From NCBI RefSeq assembly GCF_949628265.1, contig NC_088789.1, positions 23,739,883-23,803,882 on the forward strand: 64,000 nt of DNA, written 5' to 3'. The position numbers were made by a program, and so were the translations under genes. The notes under the pieces were generated by a model. The model had not been told where the DNA came from. It did no database searches and was given only the letters and a program-made list of their open reading frames with translations. Source of the stretch: Cloeon dipterum (lineage: Eukaryota; Arthropoda; Insecta; Ephemeroptera; Baetidae). This document shows positions 22,641-44,358 of this stretch, piece by piece; the stretch's first letter is position 1, and the number at the start of each line of letters is the position of its first letter.

Positions 22641-22896
22641 GAACCGCACGACTGCGCCCAGTGCGCCCCGCACCGCACAGCAACCAGCGTCTTGACTGCA
22701 GGGCGGAGAGGAGAGAGAGGAGTAGGAGTAGTAAAACACTGACGTAGCCAAGCAAAGCCGAAAGCAGCAGTCAGCAGTGAAGTGAGCGAGCAGTGATTTG
22801 CGTGGTAGAGCAAAACATGAGACTGCTGTTGTTATAAGAGGAACTTTGGCGAATTTGGGTTGTAACTTCCTCTGTCAGTTGATTTTGTCGAGAGCA

Positions 22897-25800
22897 ATGG
22901 TGCGAACGGGCAGCAAAGCCCTGCTCCTGTCCCTCGTCACCGCCGCTTTGCTTTGTTCGGCCCTGGCGAACGAGGACACAGTGACGAATCAGCAAATCTC
23001 CAGCAAACTGTTGCAGTTCCTCCAAGGACAACAAGGCAACAGATACGATTTCAAGCAGGATGCCGACGTCTTTGAGACTCAGTTGGTCGTAAGTTTCGAA
23101 GTTTGCCTGTTGAATCTTAGAGTGAAAGAATGATTTTCATGAATTGCGTCGCAGCTTGGTACTAAAATCAATATTATTGGCTGTCTTCACAATGTTTGTT
23201 TATGTACTGCTTTGAAAATCATGACATGTTTTCCTCTGCAGAATACATAACTAGGGATCAATAGTTCAACTTTTTTTTGCAATTATATGAATTGGAATTT
23301 AAATCATTTATTGGTCAATAAATAATAACTGCGCACATAATATTATTGCCCTTGAAGAATAAATTTTTAATGTAATTATATTTTTAATCTTTTTCTATTG
23401 GTCATTGCCAGAGATGAGTTTTAATTTCACAACCATACAACTCATAGTTTTACTCAGCTGGTTGAAAGAAAAGATAAAACTATTTCTTGGAAATAGCTTT
23501 TAATTATCTTCTTCGTTTATGTATTTTTTTTCTTAAACTTGAATTTTACCAAATTTAATTTTAAATTTATTTTGAGCCTGTTGTTCTACTTGATTCACAA
23601 ATTTTTACAACGCCATATAATATCTCATCCAGAATAGCAGATTAAAAAAATCTATGGTTGCTTTCATCTCATTTTTAGGGTGACACGACCTTTTTCCTGG
23701 CCGAATTGAGTCCCAAATGCAAGGACCCTGAAGATGCCCTGTGCATCGAGACGGGAATGGTGTGTCAGGGTGGCATTCTGGCTGGTGAGGTGTCGGACGT
23801 CAAGTGCTTCATTCGCGAATCTGACCCTCCGGCGCCCCAGTACAAAGAGGGCTACCTGGTCAAGCACTCCAACAACTTCGTCTCCAAAATTCTGGACGAC
23901 GGCCTTATGAAGCTGCAGAGAGACACCGGCCGCAAGAGAAAAGTCATTGACATCTTGTCCGTGAAGAAAAGGGTAATTATTTTAATAGGGTTTTGTTTTC
24001 TAGAGGCTTATCTACAAATAGTCTTGAATTTACAATCACTTAAGAGGTTTATTGTGTTAGTCAGCTATTTATAATCACCTCCTGTTAATTATTACTATTT
24101 TTTAAAAATAATATCTCCCTCCAGCTGGTAAAAATTGGATTAAATTACTGTAAATATGAAACTATTTTTATTAAATCTGGCTATCAAACCAAATATTTAT
24201 TTTATATTTATGAAAAATGGCTTCAATTCATGCCATTCAGGGGCCTTTAAGACAAACTTAAGCTCCCTTTTTCTAACTCTCCTAATTTTATAATTAGGAA
24301 ACCTCTGCTGGAACCGAGGTTTACATCACTTCCAAAGTGACCGCTGGAACCGGCGACGTCATGGAGCTGGAAGTGTGCGAGCTCTCTTCAACCCTCGGCG
24401 CCCCTGGCACGATGCAAGTGATGGAGATGGAAACCACCTGCTTTGCTTTGTCAGACGACTTTTCGTCCGCAGGAAACAAGATGCTCACTCCTGACGAGAT
24501 CAAGTCTCAAATCAACTGGGCCCTGGAGAACATCAACTCTGATACTGATTCCGTTTTTAACTTCACTGTCCACGATACCCTGGAGGCCTCTGAAATAGTA
24601 CGACTGTTTTAAACGCGGCTCCTGCAAATTAAATTTGTCCCTTTTAAGATGACTCACGGCTCTGGAGGAACCACAACCTTGCTCAAACTGGAGTTGTCTG
24701 CGACCAGATGTCCCAAGGACGCTCGCGGGCTGCAGTGGCAGTGCGAGCCAAAGGGACAGCCTTACTTCTGCACCCTGTCAACCTGGTCCAGGCCTTGGAA
24801 GAATGATATTCTGCTCTCTCGCCCTTACTGCAAGCTCATGCCCACTGCCCCTGATGCCAGAAAAGGTTTGCTGTCTTTTTAATTTGGATGAAAAGTCGTT
24901 TTAATGGTCAATAATTAGCTGATTTTGTTGGGGATGCAATCAAGCGCCCTGGCTACTGCACCGGCTGCCTTCAGGAAGTGAACAAAGAGGATGAAAAGGT
25001 TACTGAACTTGCCAACTCTGCTGTGAATGACATAAACGCTGGACAGTTGGTCTCCAGTCCGCATAAACTCGTCAGGGTGCTGTCCGCCCACCGACAGGTA
25101 CAATAAACAATTAAAATCCACAATTATTACACAATTGGGAAAGTCCCCAAGTGTTTTTAAGTACTTAGATCTTTTTATTTTACGTACTCAAAATAAAAAC
25201 TAAAAAATAAGAAATAAATCGTAGCTGTCAAACATGGAGCACTTTCTCATTTTTTTATTAATCCAAAAAATATTTAAAGGTGATTAACGGTGTCCGCTAC
25301 GTTTTGAACGTCGAACTGACGCCCTGCCTGCAAGAGACTGAGCCTTGTGAAGTGGCCGAGGGGGCTGAGAGCACTTTGACATGCCGCGTTGAGGTCATCG
25401 AAGGTGCCGTCGACAGGAAGAGGAAACTCTCCAGCGCCCTGTGCAAGCCGATCAATGAAGTAACGACCGTTGAGCCTGAAGTGACCGAGCCATCCCCTCA
25501 GGAGCGAGAAATTTACAGCGAAGAAGACAAGTCAGAGGAGGCCCAGCAGTTTGCTGAAGTTCCTCAGACAAGGGCGAAACGATCAAACCTCTTGGGCAGC
25601 CCTGAACCCATCGATTTGGAGAAGGAAGGCGATAAGATGAGGGAACTGGCTGAAATGGCCCTCAAGAATATTGATGACATTGACGACGATGTCAGCAGAA
25701 GGAAGCTGATTGATGTTATTGAAGCGAAAAAACAGGTTTGTAAACACCAGTACTTGGGATTAATTGCCAGCTAAACCAATTGATTGGAAAACATGTACTT

Positions 25801-28800
25801 GTGGTGGCTGGAATAAAGTTAAAAAATTGCAGAACATACACTTTTAACTCTCCTTTGCCTTTTTTGTTCTCATGAATATTTTCCTCTTTCTAAATTCAGC
25901 TTGTAAATGGCGTTTTGTACCATCTGTCCATGCGAATTGCGGTGATGCCCCCTTGCGACAACGGAGGTGAGGACTGCATCGCCGGCGACTCCCTTCCCAC
26001 GCTCCTCTGCAAGGTGCAGGTGCACCAGTCCCAACCTGACACGCCCAGAGGCAAACCAACGACCAAGGTCATGCGATCGGAATGCGAACCCGAGGGTATG
26101 GAATCAACCAATCAGTCCGTGAATTTAACCCAATGTCATTTATCAACAGGCGCCTTTGAAGTGCACGAGGCTGAAAATCCTGGCGTCGCACCTGCGACAA
26201 GTGGAAGAACCAAGCGTGGTTTAGTTGGTGGCGTGTCACCAGCCGACGCGAACGACCCTAAATTCAAAGAAATCGCCGATCACGCCGTGCTTGAGCTGGA
26301 CAAAGGAACCAACGCACTCTACCACAGAACAGTTGTCAAAATTGTCTCTGCCAGGCAGCAAGTGGTTTCTGGAGCTTTGTACTACCTGAAACTGGAGCTT
26401 GGCTACAGTGACTGGGCAAAGAACACGCCCAAGCCGACCAAAATCCAGCTGACTGAAGGCTCAGAAAGGGAAATTTGCGACGTCCAGGTGTGGGATCGAC
26501 CCTGGTTGAATGCAAGGGAGGTGACTAACTTTACTTGCACACAGTCTGTGTCGAGGACAAGGCGGGTGAGTTGTTTTTAGAAAATTTTTAATTGGACTTT
26601 TGTGACTCATTAAATACAGTGCAACTAGATGCATTGATATAAATAGATAAATATAATGGGACTATTAAATTTCAAAGTTAAATAAAGATGAGCTAGCTCT
26701 AGTAAAATTTGAAGAGAAAAAATAATCTGCGTGTTCTTTTTACTGTTGATCAAGCTGTTTGGGAGTTTGAGTCTACTGAAGAATTAATTTATGAATTTTT
26801 TCTTTAAAAAATCTGGTCCATTAAAATTTCCTTCCATCAAATTAAGAGACATTAAAATTATTCTATTCTCTTTAAATAAGTTTTTAATGAAAAAAAATTA
26901 TTTATTGTCATTTGCAGTCTGTCGGAAAGATTGGTGGAGGCACCCATGACATCCATGTTGGAATTTTCCTCAAGTACATTGAGCGTCACGGCAAACATTA
27001 CGAATCAGAGGAAGAATTCCACAGGCGATACCGCATTTTCCGCGCCAACATGAAGAAGATCCAGTACCTGCAGGAAACCGAGCAGGGCACCGCCAAGTAC
27101 GGGCCAACCAGATTTGCCGACATGACAAGTAAAATTGATGATGAAATCTTTCAAATGATTTTAATTAATGTGATATTTGTGTCAGGCGAGGAGTTTAAGC
27201 GAAACTACCTAGGACTCAAACCCACTTTTGAAAAGAAGGGAAAGCTCATCATGAAGAAAGCTATTATTCCGAATATTACCCTCCCTGATGAGTTCGACTG
27301 GCGCAACTACAATGCTGTCACTCCAGTTAAAAATCAGGTTTGTTGAAAAATAAATGGGGGGTTCCCAACCTTGTCCTAAAACAAAACTTGATTTTGTTCT
27401 CAAAAGATAAATATTTAAAAACTTGGTCAGTTTCTTTTAATTTTTTGTTTGGTTGATAAATAAAATCGGCGTATCGGTTTAGAACTGCAGCTCAGTTATC
27501 ACGTTAAAATATTTGGACTATATAAAAAGGTTCAGGAGAGCAAATATTTTGAATTTCAGCTCATTCAAGCTAAATTAGAAGCAACCTGCCTGAGAGAAAA
27601 TTGGATTAAAACGCCATCAACCCATATGAGAATAAGAAATTAGTTTTGAAATTAATTTTGCACAGTCATTCTCCTCTTAATTATTAATTCCAAAGAGATG
27701 AAAACCGTGCTCTTGGAGGGTTTTTATTTTTCCACAGTCCCATCCTGTTTGCAACAGCCTTGTTGAATAATTATTCACATTTTAGGGTCAATGTGGATCT
27801 TGCTGGGCTTTCTCAGTCACTGGCAACGTCGAAGGTCAGTGGGCCATCCGCAAGGGAGAACTTCTCTCCCTTTCTGAGCAGGAGCTGGTCGACTGCGACA
27901 GCCTGGACAGCGGCTGCAACGGAGGTTTGCCTAGCAACGCCTACGAGGCTCTCTTGAACATCGGTGGTCTGGAGACTGAAACCGACTATCCATATGACGG
28001 CAAGGACGAAAAGTGCCACTTTGACAAGACCGAGGTGCGCGCTACCGTCACTGGCGGAGTGAACATTACTTCAGACGAAGACAGCATCGCCAAGTGGCTC
28101 GTCAAGAACGGACCTATCTCTATAGGCATCAATGCGAATGCCATGCAGGTTGGTTTTACCTTAAAAAATTAATTTAACTGAGGTTTCCTGAATTGACGCC
28201 CTTTCTCTTATATTCAAATGATGTATTTGTGACTGATTGTGAGACTAAACAAACATCATAATAAATGATAATAATTATTCTTCTTTCAGTTCTACTTTGG
28301 AGGCGTGTCTCACCCTCCAAAATTCTTGTGCAGCCCCAAGGACCTTGATCACGGAGTCCTCATTGTCGGCTTTGGTGTTCACAGTGAGTTATTGGTCTTT
28401 TTTTACAAGGACTCCTTATTAGCAGAATTCAGTAAAATTTGCATAAAAAAACTCAAGTTAAAATTGGTAGACTTGGGAATTGTTGCCAGTTTTCAAAACA
28501 TGCGATAATTCTTAATTTTTCATTAAGTTTAAAACCCAGATTTCATTTTGTGAATTCCGACTTAAAAGGAACAAAAATTCGTCTTGTCGGAATTTGATCT
28601 TTTTTTCTTTAATTTAGTATCAAGCCAAAATATTATTTGTTAATCTGCCTCTATATAAAGTTTCAAAAATATTTCTTGAACTCTTCTTGTGGTACAATAT
28701 TAAGAGATTTTTGTCCATCAAATTAGCGATTTAAATGCATTTATTTTTATAACCAAAGAATTTAAAAAAGTTAATTACAGTTCCAAAAAGATAACCAACA

Positions 28801-39448: not shown

Positions 39449-42400
39449 ATGAAACTTTTGGAAAGTACCAAGTTTGAGGTTGTCAATACAGCTCTCAATA
39501 TCGAAACTGGAGGATCAAAAATCATTGGAAGGTACGAAATTTTGTGTTCGCCCTATTTCCATTAAACATTTCGTTGCGGTAGCGGCTAATGACTGTAACT
39601 ACACTTGGTAGCGAGCGGCGAATGACTGGTAATTCAAATACCTCGGCGTTTTTTACCTTTATTTACATCGATACCGATTTTACAGGAGAGACTTAAAACG
39701 AGTTTATTAAATTTGCGTTATGAGTTGGTAGAATCGATATCGATATTTAAAATCTGCATTATCGTGAAGCTATTTTCATACCGTCACACCATAAGAAATC
39801 TTCGTCTCACTAATTTATTTTATAGCCAAAACTTGACCCTGAAGGTGGTATTAAACATTTGAGTTTGATTACCAAGTGATTATGCTGCCTTAAGACATTG
39901 ATTTGTGCAAATAATTAAAGATACAGCTATGCAATTTGATATTTATTATGGTTATTATCGTAATTATGTGATAATTTGACAAAAAATATTAGCAAAAATA
40001 CATACCATACACGCATACATAAAATTTGATTTTTGCCAACATTGTCATCGCTAAATCTCGGGTTCAAAGTGTCAGAAATGCAAAAACGGCACACCGTTCG
40101 ACTCGTCTAGAGCTTAGAATACGAGATTTAGGGATGACTATGTCGGCAAAGATCAAGTTTAACGTTATATTATGAGCGCGTGCATGCATTTTTGCTAACA
40201 TTGCCACCGCCAAATCTTGGGTTCTAATTATAAAAAAATGTAAAAACTGCACACCGTTCGACTCATCTCAATTTCCTATAGATAGCCAATGCAATTTAGG
40301 GTAGTATTTTTTTAATTTAAGAGACTTGTTTTGTAGAGAAAAAGTGTCTGAAAGTGCTAAGCAACGCGATTTTTATCTTATCTGTAGTGCACAGGGTGGA
40401 AGGGGGATGAGGGTTGATCACCTTCCAAACCCTTCGGCTATCTAGGGAAGGTTTAGACGAGTTGAACGGTGTGCTGTTCTTGTAATTCTGATGTCTTAAA
40501 CCCGAGATTTGGCGATGACAATGTCGGCGATTATTGAGTTTTGATTTCTGCGATTGCTGCATGTATTGTCATCGCATACACTAGATGGCATAAAAATCAC
40601 GCTTCTAACCATCATAATGGTGTAAAATTTTGTCCTGGTGTAGATCATTGTAAAAAAAAACAAAAGACGCACGAAACCGTGTTTGGTAACGAAGTGCAGT
40701 TAAAGGTAAAAAACGCCGAGGTATTTGAATTACCAGTCATTCGCCGCTCGCTACCAAGTGTAGTTACAGTCATTAGCCGCTACCACAACGATTTGCCTTC
40801 ATGACAAAGCATGTGTCACAATTGAAGGTTAAAGGTGAAAGTATCATTCATTAAAGGCTTGTTGCTATGAGCACAATGTATGTATTTATAGTTTTCTTTT
40901 TTCAAACCAAGCCTTGTTATGATTTACCTCACGCTTTACTTTATTTAATTTCCGTCGCTCTATTTGTGTTCCAGAATTGAAAGCTATTCATGCAAATTAG
41001 CTGGTGGCGAGAAACAGATGTACAAGAAGTTCAACAACACCGAGAGCGGAGCGAAGCCAAACGACCTGCAAGCCCTGTCGCCTCCGCGGTCGTCGTATGC
41101 AGGGTCGCCCTACAGCCAAAGCTTTTCGGGCGACGAGGAGAATCCCCTGTGCGACACAATTTCCCGCAAGACCCTCTTCTACCTGATTGCCACTTTAAAC
41201 GCCGCGTTTCACCCTGACTACGACTTCTCAGACACATCCAGTCATGAATTTAGCAAAGAACGTTCAAATGAGGTAGAAATTTATTTGTTTCAATTCATTT
41301 TATTCATGCTAAAAAAAGGCACGAAAATCCGCAATATTAAAAAGCGGAAAAAACACTAAAATATCTTGCAGATGACGTTTGATTTGATTTTGCACAAGTT
41401 GAATTTTTTCAAATCAGTCAAGGTTGAGAAATTGCGTTTTTGGAGAGTTTTTAGCTCAAGATTTCGAAGGTTGCTTATTTGAAATAAGTAAACAAATAAT
41501 GAGATTTAAAAGTAGCATAATATCATGTTGTCTAACATTAAATATTATTTCCCCCCCCCTTTTTGCCGAATGAGTCACTTTCATGTCCACAAATGGAATT
41601 AAAAATATAAACACGATAAATACGATCAATTTTGAAAAAATTCTTTATTATGGAACTGAAATTTTTCGGGAATTTTGCCTCGTTTTTGCAACAAAAAATT
41701 TCGAATCAATGGTGTTGAATATACCGGACAAAATGTTGCTAATTTTCAGAAAAAATCCTGACAACTATGTGAACCCAGGTTTTATTGCGTCTTAAATTAA
41801 TTCAAACTGTTTTTTGAATGGAAAGAAAAAACTTTTATGCAAATTGCAATGTCAATGATTGCCATAATAATATTTATAATTCAGTTTGCCTTCTTACTGG
41901 TCAATTTTGCAATATTTTGGTGATTTCTTCATCTGATAGAGGTAAAAACTATAACTATTACGATTTTAACACTGGTAAACCCCCTTTTATTTTATTTAAC
42001 TGACATCAAAATTTGGCAATCGCAGACATTGTTATGAACAAAATTTAAAAAAATTAAAATTGGAAAAAATAATTTTTGCCCTGCTGAAAATATTTCATGT
42101 GACATGCAGTTCTGGCTATTTGGAAAAAAATCTCAAATATTTTATATTATTTGTATATATTTTCAGTATGTGAAGAATGTCGTGGACAATTATCTGCAGA
42201 TGGCGGGTGCGCAGTACCAGAATGTCCGCCCTGAACTTTGGGCCGCCATTGATGAGGAGATCGTATTGAACGAAAGCGAAATCTATAGGTACAACGGCTT
42301 TTCGCCACATTGAAACACGGGTTCCCGTCAGATCACCACAGTTAAGCAATGTGGGGGCCGGTGGCGTCATTTCTATAAACGCCAGCCGGACTCGCTGTTG

Positions 42401-44358
42401 TAAACCTAAGCGAATCGCGGTGCTGCGGGAGACAAGAGAAGTAAAATGCTTGCATAATTCCTTATGCCCTATTTCAACAGCTACAATCCTGACCTCGCTT
42501 CTGACCCATTTGGTGAAGAAGGAAGCCTCTGGTCTTTTAACTACTTCTTCTACAACAAGAAGTTGAAGCGGGTTGTCTTATTTACATGCCGAGCAGTCAA
42601 GTAAGACATCTTTCATTTTTTCTAATTCGGGGGGAGGGGATTTTGAATTAAAATACAACAGGAATTCGTTCTGGTCCCGGTAAAATTGCGCAACGTTCAA
42701 CAAACACCCAAATTTTCATTTTTGAATTGATTGTTGACCTTTTCTTTCAGCAAGGAAATTCGCGATTGGTTGTTGAAAGTTGCGCAATTTTACCAGGACC
42801 AGGACGAATTCATAAAAAATTACAATTTAATCATAACCTTTAAAAAGAAAGGATTAAATGGCTTATTTTCTGGATTGAATTTTTGAGAAATATATCTGCT
42901 GGGGATTTGATCTAGCCAAGGAAATAATTTAAAAAGGGTTAGTTATTCTTTGTAATTTTAGTCAAGGATACAATTAAAGAGAAAAATCATTTTGAGGTTT
43001 TTTGCTGGATAACAGGATTAACAGGCCAATTTGCCCCTCAGGTGTCTATAGCAGTAATTGTACTGCCAAACTATTTATTGCTACTCTTACATATTCTGAA
43101 ATATGCGGTTTACAACACTCATTATTGAGCAAATATTATGTAAAAAAAAGGAAATGATGGCCAAGCTCATCTGCCGCCATTCAGGCCCGTGTTATCTACG
43201 CAGCGGTGAGATCATAGCCCACGGGAAGGACTCAAGGAAAAATACATAATATTTTTTTAGACCTTACCACTGCGACCGACAATTTTATCTCACAATAATC
43301 TCTCATACAATTTTTTATCCAGCTGAACAGTTAAGCATGAAAACATTTGAAACTATTTTTCTCTTCAATTGTTCACATTCTGGTATAAAATTTCCTTAAT
43401 ATAGTTTCTTTCACAAAAAAAGACTAATTATAGTCTAATTTCTCATTTGTATAACAGGCTGAATTCAATTTAAAAATGCCGTGATATTTAATAATTTTAA
43501 ATTTATGGTTGTGTTGTTTTTGCAGTAATAAGTAACAGCGTATTTTGTATCTAACTAAGGAATTTTATCGTGTTTTTATTTCCCCTTCCGTAGTTCTGTG
43601 TAAAAGTTGTACGCAGTTAAATACAAATTACAGCGAGAAACACATTTTTTTCTTGCGTGTAATATTTAAAAAAATAATTTTTGCTTCTTGGATGTTCTTT
43701 TTTAACAGCTGCTGTGTCGTACAAGAGCATAATGTGTTATTTTTCTGTTCCTACTTTTTAATTTTTTACCGTTCCATTCCTTGTAGCTTAGCAACTTTAA
43801 ATCCAATTTTAATAATAATTTTTATTCCTTCTTATTTTAAATTATCTTTTGGAATTATCTTGAGTATAAAATGAGCGCTGAGCCAATAATGCAACCCTTT
43901 TAACTAGGAATAATTGCACTGAGAAGCTCCCAACTGATTTCAAAGATTGAATTGGATAAAATATAGTATGATATCAAATTTCAGCTTAAAATATACTTCT
44001 ATTTTTATTAAGCTGAATTGTAATTTTAATAGGTTTGACTTTTAGTCCCTTTAAGCCCCTTTAAAATAGGTAATTTTGAAAAACCCAATGTTGCGTTTAG
44101 AAACTACTGAAGAGCTTACGGGAAAATCAGAATATTTAATATTTTTATTCTTTATTTACAGGAATTTAAATATAAATCAAATTAAATTATGGTAAGCTGG
44201 CTAGGATTTAATCTTTATCGGTTTTGGGCTCCATATTAATAAATTTTGCTAATTCATATATTTATCCTTTCAATTTTAGTCCAAACTCTACCGCGTACCT
44301 GGACTCTGGATTCTACTACTCGAGCTTCGCTGCTATGGAGGACGATGAGGAATATTAG
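39449..44358 (+). CDS. Maf1: Maf1, repressor of RNA polymerase III transcription
   Basis: A conserved nuclear and cytoplasmic protein that represses Pol III (5S, tRNA) under stress and TOR inhibition. Exons: 39449-39531, 40975-41272, 42167-42288, 42481-42600 and 44280-44358, giving 233 residues; human MAF1 has about 256. Family blocks are [36 protein letters not shown], a Ser-rich linker ([20 protein letters not shown]) likely to be phosphorylated, [73 protein letters not shown] and the acidic end [16 protein letters not shown]. Intron 1 contains a 1.2-kb inverted-repeat element, intron 3 a 5S-rRNA-like sequence at its donor, and intron 4 a short MITE-like element. Confidence 0.95.
39571..40791. 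mobile_element. 1.2-kb terminal-inverted-repeat element in Maf1 intron 1
   Basis: The 90-bp inverted repeats at 39572-39661 and 40701-40790 differ at one position (GCGG versus GTGG near the tip). Each begins CGTTG(C/T)GGTAGCGGCTAATG. ATTT flanks both ends directly. The interior has no open frame of note but contains alternating-orientation subrepeats: 40033-40065 and 40192-40224 in one direction, 40121-40150 and 40500-40530 in the other. CACACCGTTCGACTC-type motifs lie near 40090, 40250 and, inverted, 40460. It is best read as a non-autonomous DNA transposon or foldback element. The near identity of the ends indicates recent insertion or conversion. Confidence 0.8.
42289..42406 (+). ncRNA. 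5S-rRNA-like structured sequence spanning the 5' splice site of Maf1 intron 3
   Basis: This 118-nt stretch matches 5S rRNA, especially GGTTCCCGTCAGATCACC and AGTTAAGCAA, which are near-signature loop B/C sequences. Pairings: helix I, 42290-42298 with 42394-42402 (nine pairs, one G-U); helix II, CCACATTG 42305-42312 with CAATGTGG 42347-42354 (eight perfect pairs); helix IV/V, CCGG 42358-42361 with 42386-42389 and TGGCGT 42362-42367 with ACGCCA 42379-42384, an 11-nt loop and a bulged G. The 3' half that should carry the Pol III intermediate element and box C is unlike 5S, so independent transcription is unlikely. The first two bases are the intron's GT donor. Read-through gives a stop at 42311-42313. 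It could also be the relic of a 5S-headed SINE or a 5S pseudogene. Confidence 0.75.
42667..42806 (+). mobile_element. Short terminal-inverted-repeat element (MITE-like), copy 2, in Maf1 intron 4
   Basis: 140 bp in the same orientation as 22201-22342 and highly similar throughout. Ends are CGTTCTGGTCCCGGTAAAAT and its inverse, directly flanked by AATT on both sides, consistent with a 4-bp target duplication. It has no coding capacity. Confidence 0.8.

Follow-up and report, generated by a model that had tools for sequence, protein, structure and literature searches.

The Pol III repressor Maf1 of the mayfly Cloeon dipterum is encoded by a gene whose third intron begins, at its 5′ splice site, with a sequence resembling 5S rRNA. 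We studied this gene within a window of 64,000 nt, the whole stretch of DNA analysed here (NCBI RefSeq assembly GCF_949628265.1, contig NC_088789.1, positions 23,739,883 to 23,803,882 of the forward strand); coordinates below count from its first base. The placement of a 5S mimic over a Maf1 splice site suggests that cells may tune the brake on RNA polymerase III (Pol III) by sensing the supply of 5S rRNA. We give about even chances to the reading that the start of intron 3 is a diverged 5S sequence that has been retained as a structured element acting in cis, equivalent to the 5S mimic in plant TFIIIA pre-mRNA, and that takes part in a feedback gated by ribosomal protein L5.

A 5S rRNA-like element at the start of Maf1 intron 3

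The Maf1 gene is intact. Its exons (39449-39531, 40975-41272, 42167-42288, 42481-42600 and 44280-44358) join into one open frame, and the predicted protein belongs to the Maf1 family, matching the whole of the Pfam profile (positions 1-174 of 174, E 9.9e-62). It also matches a MAF1 homolog of known structure (E 4.9e-58) in an alignment that runs unbroken over the junction of exons 3 and 4. Searches with the Maf1 protein in two contig collections, one of genomes and one of viruses and neither containing animals, found 39 and 4 stretches matching a pattern and 0 relatives, a result without bearing on conservation. Intron 3 is the smallest of the four introns, the others being 1443, 894 and 1679 nt long.

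39449-44358, plus strand: Maf1 coding span, 233 codons (joined open frame, Pfam PF09174, PDB 3nr5)
42289-42480, plus strand: Maf1 intron 3, 192 nt, with GT donor TAG/GTACAA (slash at the exon-intron border) and acceptor TTTCAACAG
42290-42403, plus strand: 5S rRNA-like element, or 5S mimic (RF00001, 39.7 bits with a gathering cut-off of 38; fold z-score)

The element makes up the first 114-115 nt of the intron and lies in the sense orientation. The Rfam covariance model of 5S rRNA (RF00001), which the first-pass annotation of this sequence had proposed as a check, aligns to it over its full length (model positions 1-120) with a score above the cut-off, and this is the sole gathering-level Rfam match within the window. 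The score and the 5S helices described below place the element in the 5S rRNA family; the part of the alignment displayed contains one non-standard pair (two marked positions). Rescaled by arithmetic to one family over 190 Mb, the E-value is about 8e-5, which makes a chance resemblance unlikely, and on the RF00001 score we set that explanation aside. Together, the model match and the joined gene frame confirm the earlier claim of a sense-oriented 5S-like sequence at the start of a 192-nt intron 3.

Intron 4 of the same gene carries a long hairpin (42643-42830) formed by two 64-nt arms that are 80% complementary and 60 nt apart. The hairpin also gives matches to microRNA precursors, all below threshold. 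One portion shows 70% similarity to sequence adjoining a 5S gene elsewhere in the genome (locus L032), and because of this likeness it is probably a small inverted-repeat transposon.

A 5S fold kept in part and rebuilt in part

The predicted fold comprises a helix I of 9 bp, a helix II of 8 bp and an arm of 10 bp with 3 more past a bulge. These counts agree with the 9, 8 and 10 pairs that had been assigned to helices I, II and IV/V, but helix I does not correspond to 5S helix I position by position, and the IV/V arm has been replaced by a GC-rich hairpin unrelated to that of 5S. The element retains helices I-III, along with the greater part of loops B and C.

42305-42312 (CCACAUUG) paired with 42347-42354 (CAAUGUGG), plus strand: helix II, with two pairs changed on both sides relative to 5S and zero broken
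42315-42343, plus strand: helix III, loop C and the 3′ strand, 29 nt collinear with 5S, with one broken pair (C-G to G.A)
42355-42393, plus strand: 13-bp hairpin, interrupted by two bulges of one base each, where 5S has helices IV/V and loop E (z -3.38, 2 of 200 shuffles as good)

The 5S internal loop in helix II has been closed by the loss of one base. In helix I, the strands UACAAC and GUUGUA correspond to 5S positions 4-9 and their partners (read by eye, with the pairs tabulated); three pairs have disappeared from the outer end of the 5S helix and three have been gained on its inner side. Because the sequence places these strands at positions 4-9, the Rfam register overstates the number of compensatory changes in helix I. 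We therefore discarded the four double compensations that this register yields in the helix, since by sequence a register displaced by three is the better one.

Fold z-scores for the element were -3.54, -3.15 and -3.42 in three runs, compared with -1.78 to -2.52 for six distinct 5S genes of the same genome. With its flanks included, the element reached a z-score of -4.38, and none of 200 shuffles was as good.

Descent from 5S rRNA

A 5S search of the organism's own genome (190 Mb in 10 contigs) scored 47 of 4585 candidates, the Maf1 element not being among those scored. Of the scored candidates, at least 34 are strong matches (101.8-113.9 bits), one stands at 78.8 bits and 12 score from 41.4 to 71.8 bits. 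This last group was fetched in full, and all 12 loci are alike beyond their 5S part, so we take them to be copies of a short interspersed nuclear element (SINE) derived from 5S rRNA. SINEs of this ancestry are of the SINE3 type. The family has at least 40 copies in this genome (40 scored of 2019 candidates).

The SINE (loci L033-L044) is about 380 nt long, with a 5S-derived head and a tail of about 260 nt. A tRNA gene (L034:2018-2089; Rfam, 69.0 bits) lies 2.7 kb from one copy. The 5S genes (L002-L031) occur singly or in small groups, in mixed orientation, across four of the five large contigs, and 16 distinct sequences are found among 30 of them, unlike the usual uniform tandem array. The telomere repeat TTAGG gave 0 matches in a search that skips simple repeats.

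In the aligned blocks of helices II and III, 34 of 42 bases of the Maf1 element equal the 5S consensus. Four sites in these blocks are diagnostic between the 5S genes and the SINE; three follow 5S, two of these being variable within the 5S genes, and one follows the SINE. The helix I strands, compared by eye, resemble 5S and not the SINE head. From this identity, the diagnostic sites and the helix I strands, it is near certain that the Maf1 element descends from a 5S sequence.

That the element is a remnant of the SINE whose tail has been lost seems very improbable. Like these SINEs it has a 5S-like head, the family is abundant in this genome, and the A at 5S position 40 is common to the element and the SINE consensus. 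It differs in being nearer to the 5S genes at most diagnostic sites and in its UACAAC and GUUGUA strands, and it has neither a tail nor sister copies that we could find: no convincing match to the SINE tail appeared at the Maf1 intron, and searches of the genome with the 118-nt element or with the 461 nt around it recovered no second copy. Many identical copies elsewhere, as expected of a 5S-derived SINE, had been named beforehand as grounds for abandoning the proposal, and they did not appear. On the missing tail, the missing second copy and the mostly 5S-like diagnostic sites, we rejected membership in the SINE family.

The idea that Maf1 houses a 5S gene that is divergent yet still active is nearly refuted. 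It would account for an RF00001 score above the cut-off. However, the C box is part of the internal promoter of 5S genes and runs of T are Pol III terminators, and in the Maf1 element the C-box arm has been replaced, a TTTT lies inside, and no run of four T follows up to the end of intron 3. The 30 5S genes examined show the reverse without exception, each having such a run within 40 nt downstream and none inside. We thus ruled out a functional 5S rRNA gene. The earlier description of the internal Pol III promoter as unrecognisable is right for the C-box region; GTTAAGCAA is retained.

42299-42302, plus strand: internal TTTT, a potential Pol III stop, absent inside 30 of 30 5S genes examined

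The Maf1 splice site within the fold

When folded in its pre-mRNA context, helix I is predicted to span the exon-intron border and to reach 13 bp, with the whole donor paired. UAGGU (42286-42290) pairs with ACCUA (42404-42408) next to a 2-nt bulge, a fuller pairing than that in the first-pass annotation, which had correctly placed the U of the GU donor in helix I.

42286-42298, plus strand: 5′ strand of the extended helix I, comprising the final three bases of the exon, the GU donor and UACAACGGC (folding in context)
42394-42408, plus strand: 3′ strand of helix I, comprising GCUGUUGU, the 2-nt bulge AA and ACCUA, and containing a second GU at 42400
42400-42405, plus strand: candidate second donor GTT/GTAAAC, whose use would lengthen the transcript by 111 nt that include an in-frame stop

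The two GU sites (42289 and 42400) stand on opposing strands of helix I. Retention of intron 3 gives the reading RYNGFSPH*, in which the stop is the ninth codon, as had been claimed, and the product of the second donor would end at the same stop.

Donor pairing is not distinctive and proves nothing alone, because the intron 4 donor is also predicted to be paired. The intron 3 donor is, moreover, largely paired even with 80-nt flanks that lack the 3′ strand of helix I. For both reasons we do not accept donor accessibility as proof.

The arrangement of the two GU sites on opposite strands, together with the stable fold, would also suit a structural splicing element that works without a protein. 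Helix I would then weaken the donor, or toggle between 42289 and 42400, and so set a constant or temperature-dependent level of Maf1; 5S would have supplied the fold and nothing would be sensed. Such an element leaves the retention of loop C and helix III unexplained, as seen in the 34 of 42 bases shared with 5S in the aligned blocks, and we consider it distinctly improbable.

Probable selection on RNA shape

We compared substitutions, breaks and double compensations in the helices with the genome's own 5S, taking P values from simulated neutral change. Helix II has 4 substitutions, including 2 double compensations, and 0 breaks (P 0.0037 with doubles counted). Over the core of helix I and helices II and III, 7 substitutions are accompanied by 1 break, compared with 4.7 expected (P 0.0071 on breaks alone, 0.0021 with doubles). 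Helices II and III of 12 SINE heads, a count from which the 5S genes L008 and L026 were left out, hold 33 substitutions, 21 breaks and 4 doubles; most of these heads break pairs as expected.

Several observations weigh against the reading of the element as a kept structure. If the count takes in the three outer pairs that helix I has lost, P weakens to 0.034 (0.020 with doubles). A pair is broken in helix III, and a C has become A in loop C. A single decayed SINE copy, L040, with 7 substitutions, 1 break and 2 doubles in helices II and III, is as good as Maf1, and 3 of the 12 SINE heads fold with z-scores of -2.9 to -3.9; the SINE copies compared were chosen by score, which favours retained pairs. 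Among 998 scanning windows across the 64 kb, 8 have a z-score as low and 15 a lower energy. The pairing of the intron 4 donor belongs here too, as does a search of 6 kb at the RPL5 gene (RPL11, TFIIIA and others not included), which gave no similar element at E <= 0.5. Finally, the whole analysis rests on one genome.

The first-pass annotation had attributed the paired stems to selection on RNA shape and not to neutral decay. We regard this as likely and moderately supported, with P between 0.002 and 0.03 according to what is counted: the compensations in helix II and the new hairpin argue for it, and the similar score of L040 argues against it.

The alternative is that a decayed, functionless 5S pseudogene landed in or founded intron 3, so that its fold reflects inheritance and chance, and its tie to Maf1 is a coincidence. 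5S-like DNA is common in this genome, with at least 34 dispersed 5S genes and a large 5S-derived SINE family, and both the equally well preserved pairs of a decayed SINE copy and the reliance on one genome are consistent with such an origin. A pseudogene would not be expected to show compensations in helix II without breaks, three new inner pairs in helix I, a new 13-bp hairpin and pairing between exon and intron. Nor does it readily explain an element that has no other copy found in its own genome, and that lies in the sense orientation with one end exactly on the donor of a Pol III regulator. On balance we judge the pseudogene explanation to be rather unlikely.

Other features of the window

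ARAGORN found 0 tRNAs in the 64-kb window. A run of exons at 22798-27343 ends in a cathepsin propeptide domain (I29); its upstream exons resemble, by eye, repeated cystatin-like units, and two open reading frames tested there gave no Pfam match. A CAP-Gly domain is also encoded in the window.

Discussion

The closest known counterpart of the Maf1 element is a 5S mimic in the pre-mRNA of plant TFIIIA (P5SM), said to have been described by Hammond and by Fu in 2009.

Published accounts place P5SM in TFIIIA pre-mRNA (PMC6164485, PMC5972288, PMC12857756, PMC8617911) and report that plant L5 binds it and favours removal of a stop-containing stretch, giving more TFIIIA (PMC6164485, PMC5972288, PMC12857756). 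The Maf1 element and P5SM are alike in that each is 5S-derived, lies in the sense orientation in the pre-mRNA of a regulator of 5S output, and has an unproductive product with a stop. In other words, both are 5S-like folds carried by the pre-mRNA of a gene that regulates Pol III or 5S. The differences lie in the wiring. P5SM is a cassette exon of TFIIIA, an activator, whereas the Maf1 element sits on the productive 5′ splice site of a repressor and is not a cassette. L5, the known reader of P5SM and the proposed reader of the Maf1 element, favours productive splicing in plants and would have to block productive splicing of Maf1, with the sign of the feedback remaining the same. Unlike in P5SM, the loop E and helix IV-V arm has been replaced in the Maf1 element, which is known from the sequence of a single genome.

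A further parallel concerns the plant MAF1 motif, reportedly from a 2014 paper. MAF1 introns of flowering plants contain this conserved structured motif and a neighbouring tRNA-like element, CPIR-1, with no function assigned there (PMC12218528). Here too, a structured look-alike of a Pol III product lies in an intron of the Pol III repressor. The look-alike is tRNA-like and not 5S-like, however, it belongs to flowering plants, and there is no sign of common descent with the Maf1 element. In the literature searched, of which coverage was partial, we found no report of a 5S-like element in a Maf1 gene.

If the element is read by a protein, L5 (uL18) appears the likeliest candidate. On 5S rRNA, the binding site of L5 is helix II with loop C, and that of TFIIIA is helices I, III and V with loops A, B and E (PMC6164485). 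L5 would be the natural reader because helix II and most of loop C are retained whereas helix V and loop E are lost; TFIIIA seems the least likely sensor because these two lost parts are among its contacts with 5S. The identity of the host gene, the Pol III repressor itself, also speaks for a regulatory role.

Specifically, we propose that L5, alone or with L11, binds the retained half of the element. A deficit of 5S relative to L5 would leave L5 free to keep helix I closed and bar U1 from the donor. Intron 3 would then be retained, or the donor at 42400 used, and translation would stop nine codons on. With less Maf1 made, Pol III would be released and 5S would rise; plentiful 5S would in turn take up L5, the donor would open and Maf1 would be made. 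The direction of this loop, with L5 blocking Maf1 splicing, is one that we infer, the first-pass annotation having given none. Loss of Maf1 affects 5S (PMC12262857). Because Maf1 represses Pol III, including at the 5S genes, closure of the donor by L5 would raise 5S, which is the same sign as in plants.

The first-pass annotation had supposed that proteins binding 5S sense its balance and set Maf1 splicing. This interpretation finds partial support, in the 5S ancestry, the sense orientation, the position on the donor, the kept fold, the stop and the apparent non-SINE origin, with selection on shape moderately supported. Tentatively, and with slightly less than even confidence, we suggest that the Maf1 pre-mRNA directly senses how 5S and L5 are balanced. 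In this view an exapted stretch of 5S, without the TFIIIA-binding arm but with the L5-binding half, would lock the donor when L5 is in excess, so that too little 5S would turn the Pol III repressor off; the arrangement would be an independent mirror of the plant TFIIIA switch.

If this is true, feedback from its own product would act on Pol III within its general repressor, beside the known control of the Maf1 protein by signalling. It would make testable how cells match the 5S rRNA made by Pol III to the ribosomal proteins that carry it, a long-standing question. It would also show that the 5S-mimic switch arose independently a second time, its wiring inverted to suit a repressor, and would offer a clean example of a splicing element made from ribosomal RNA sequence. 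Taken with the tRNA-like element of plant MAF1, it would hint that the products of Pol III have been mimicked more than once in the pre-mRNAs of their own regulators.

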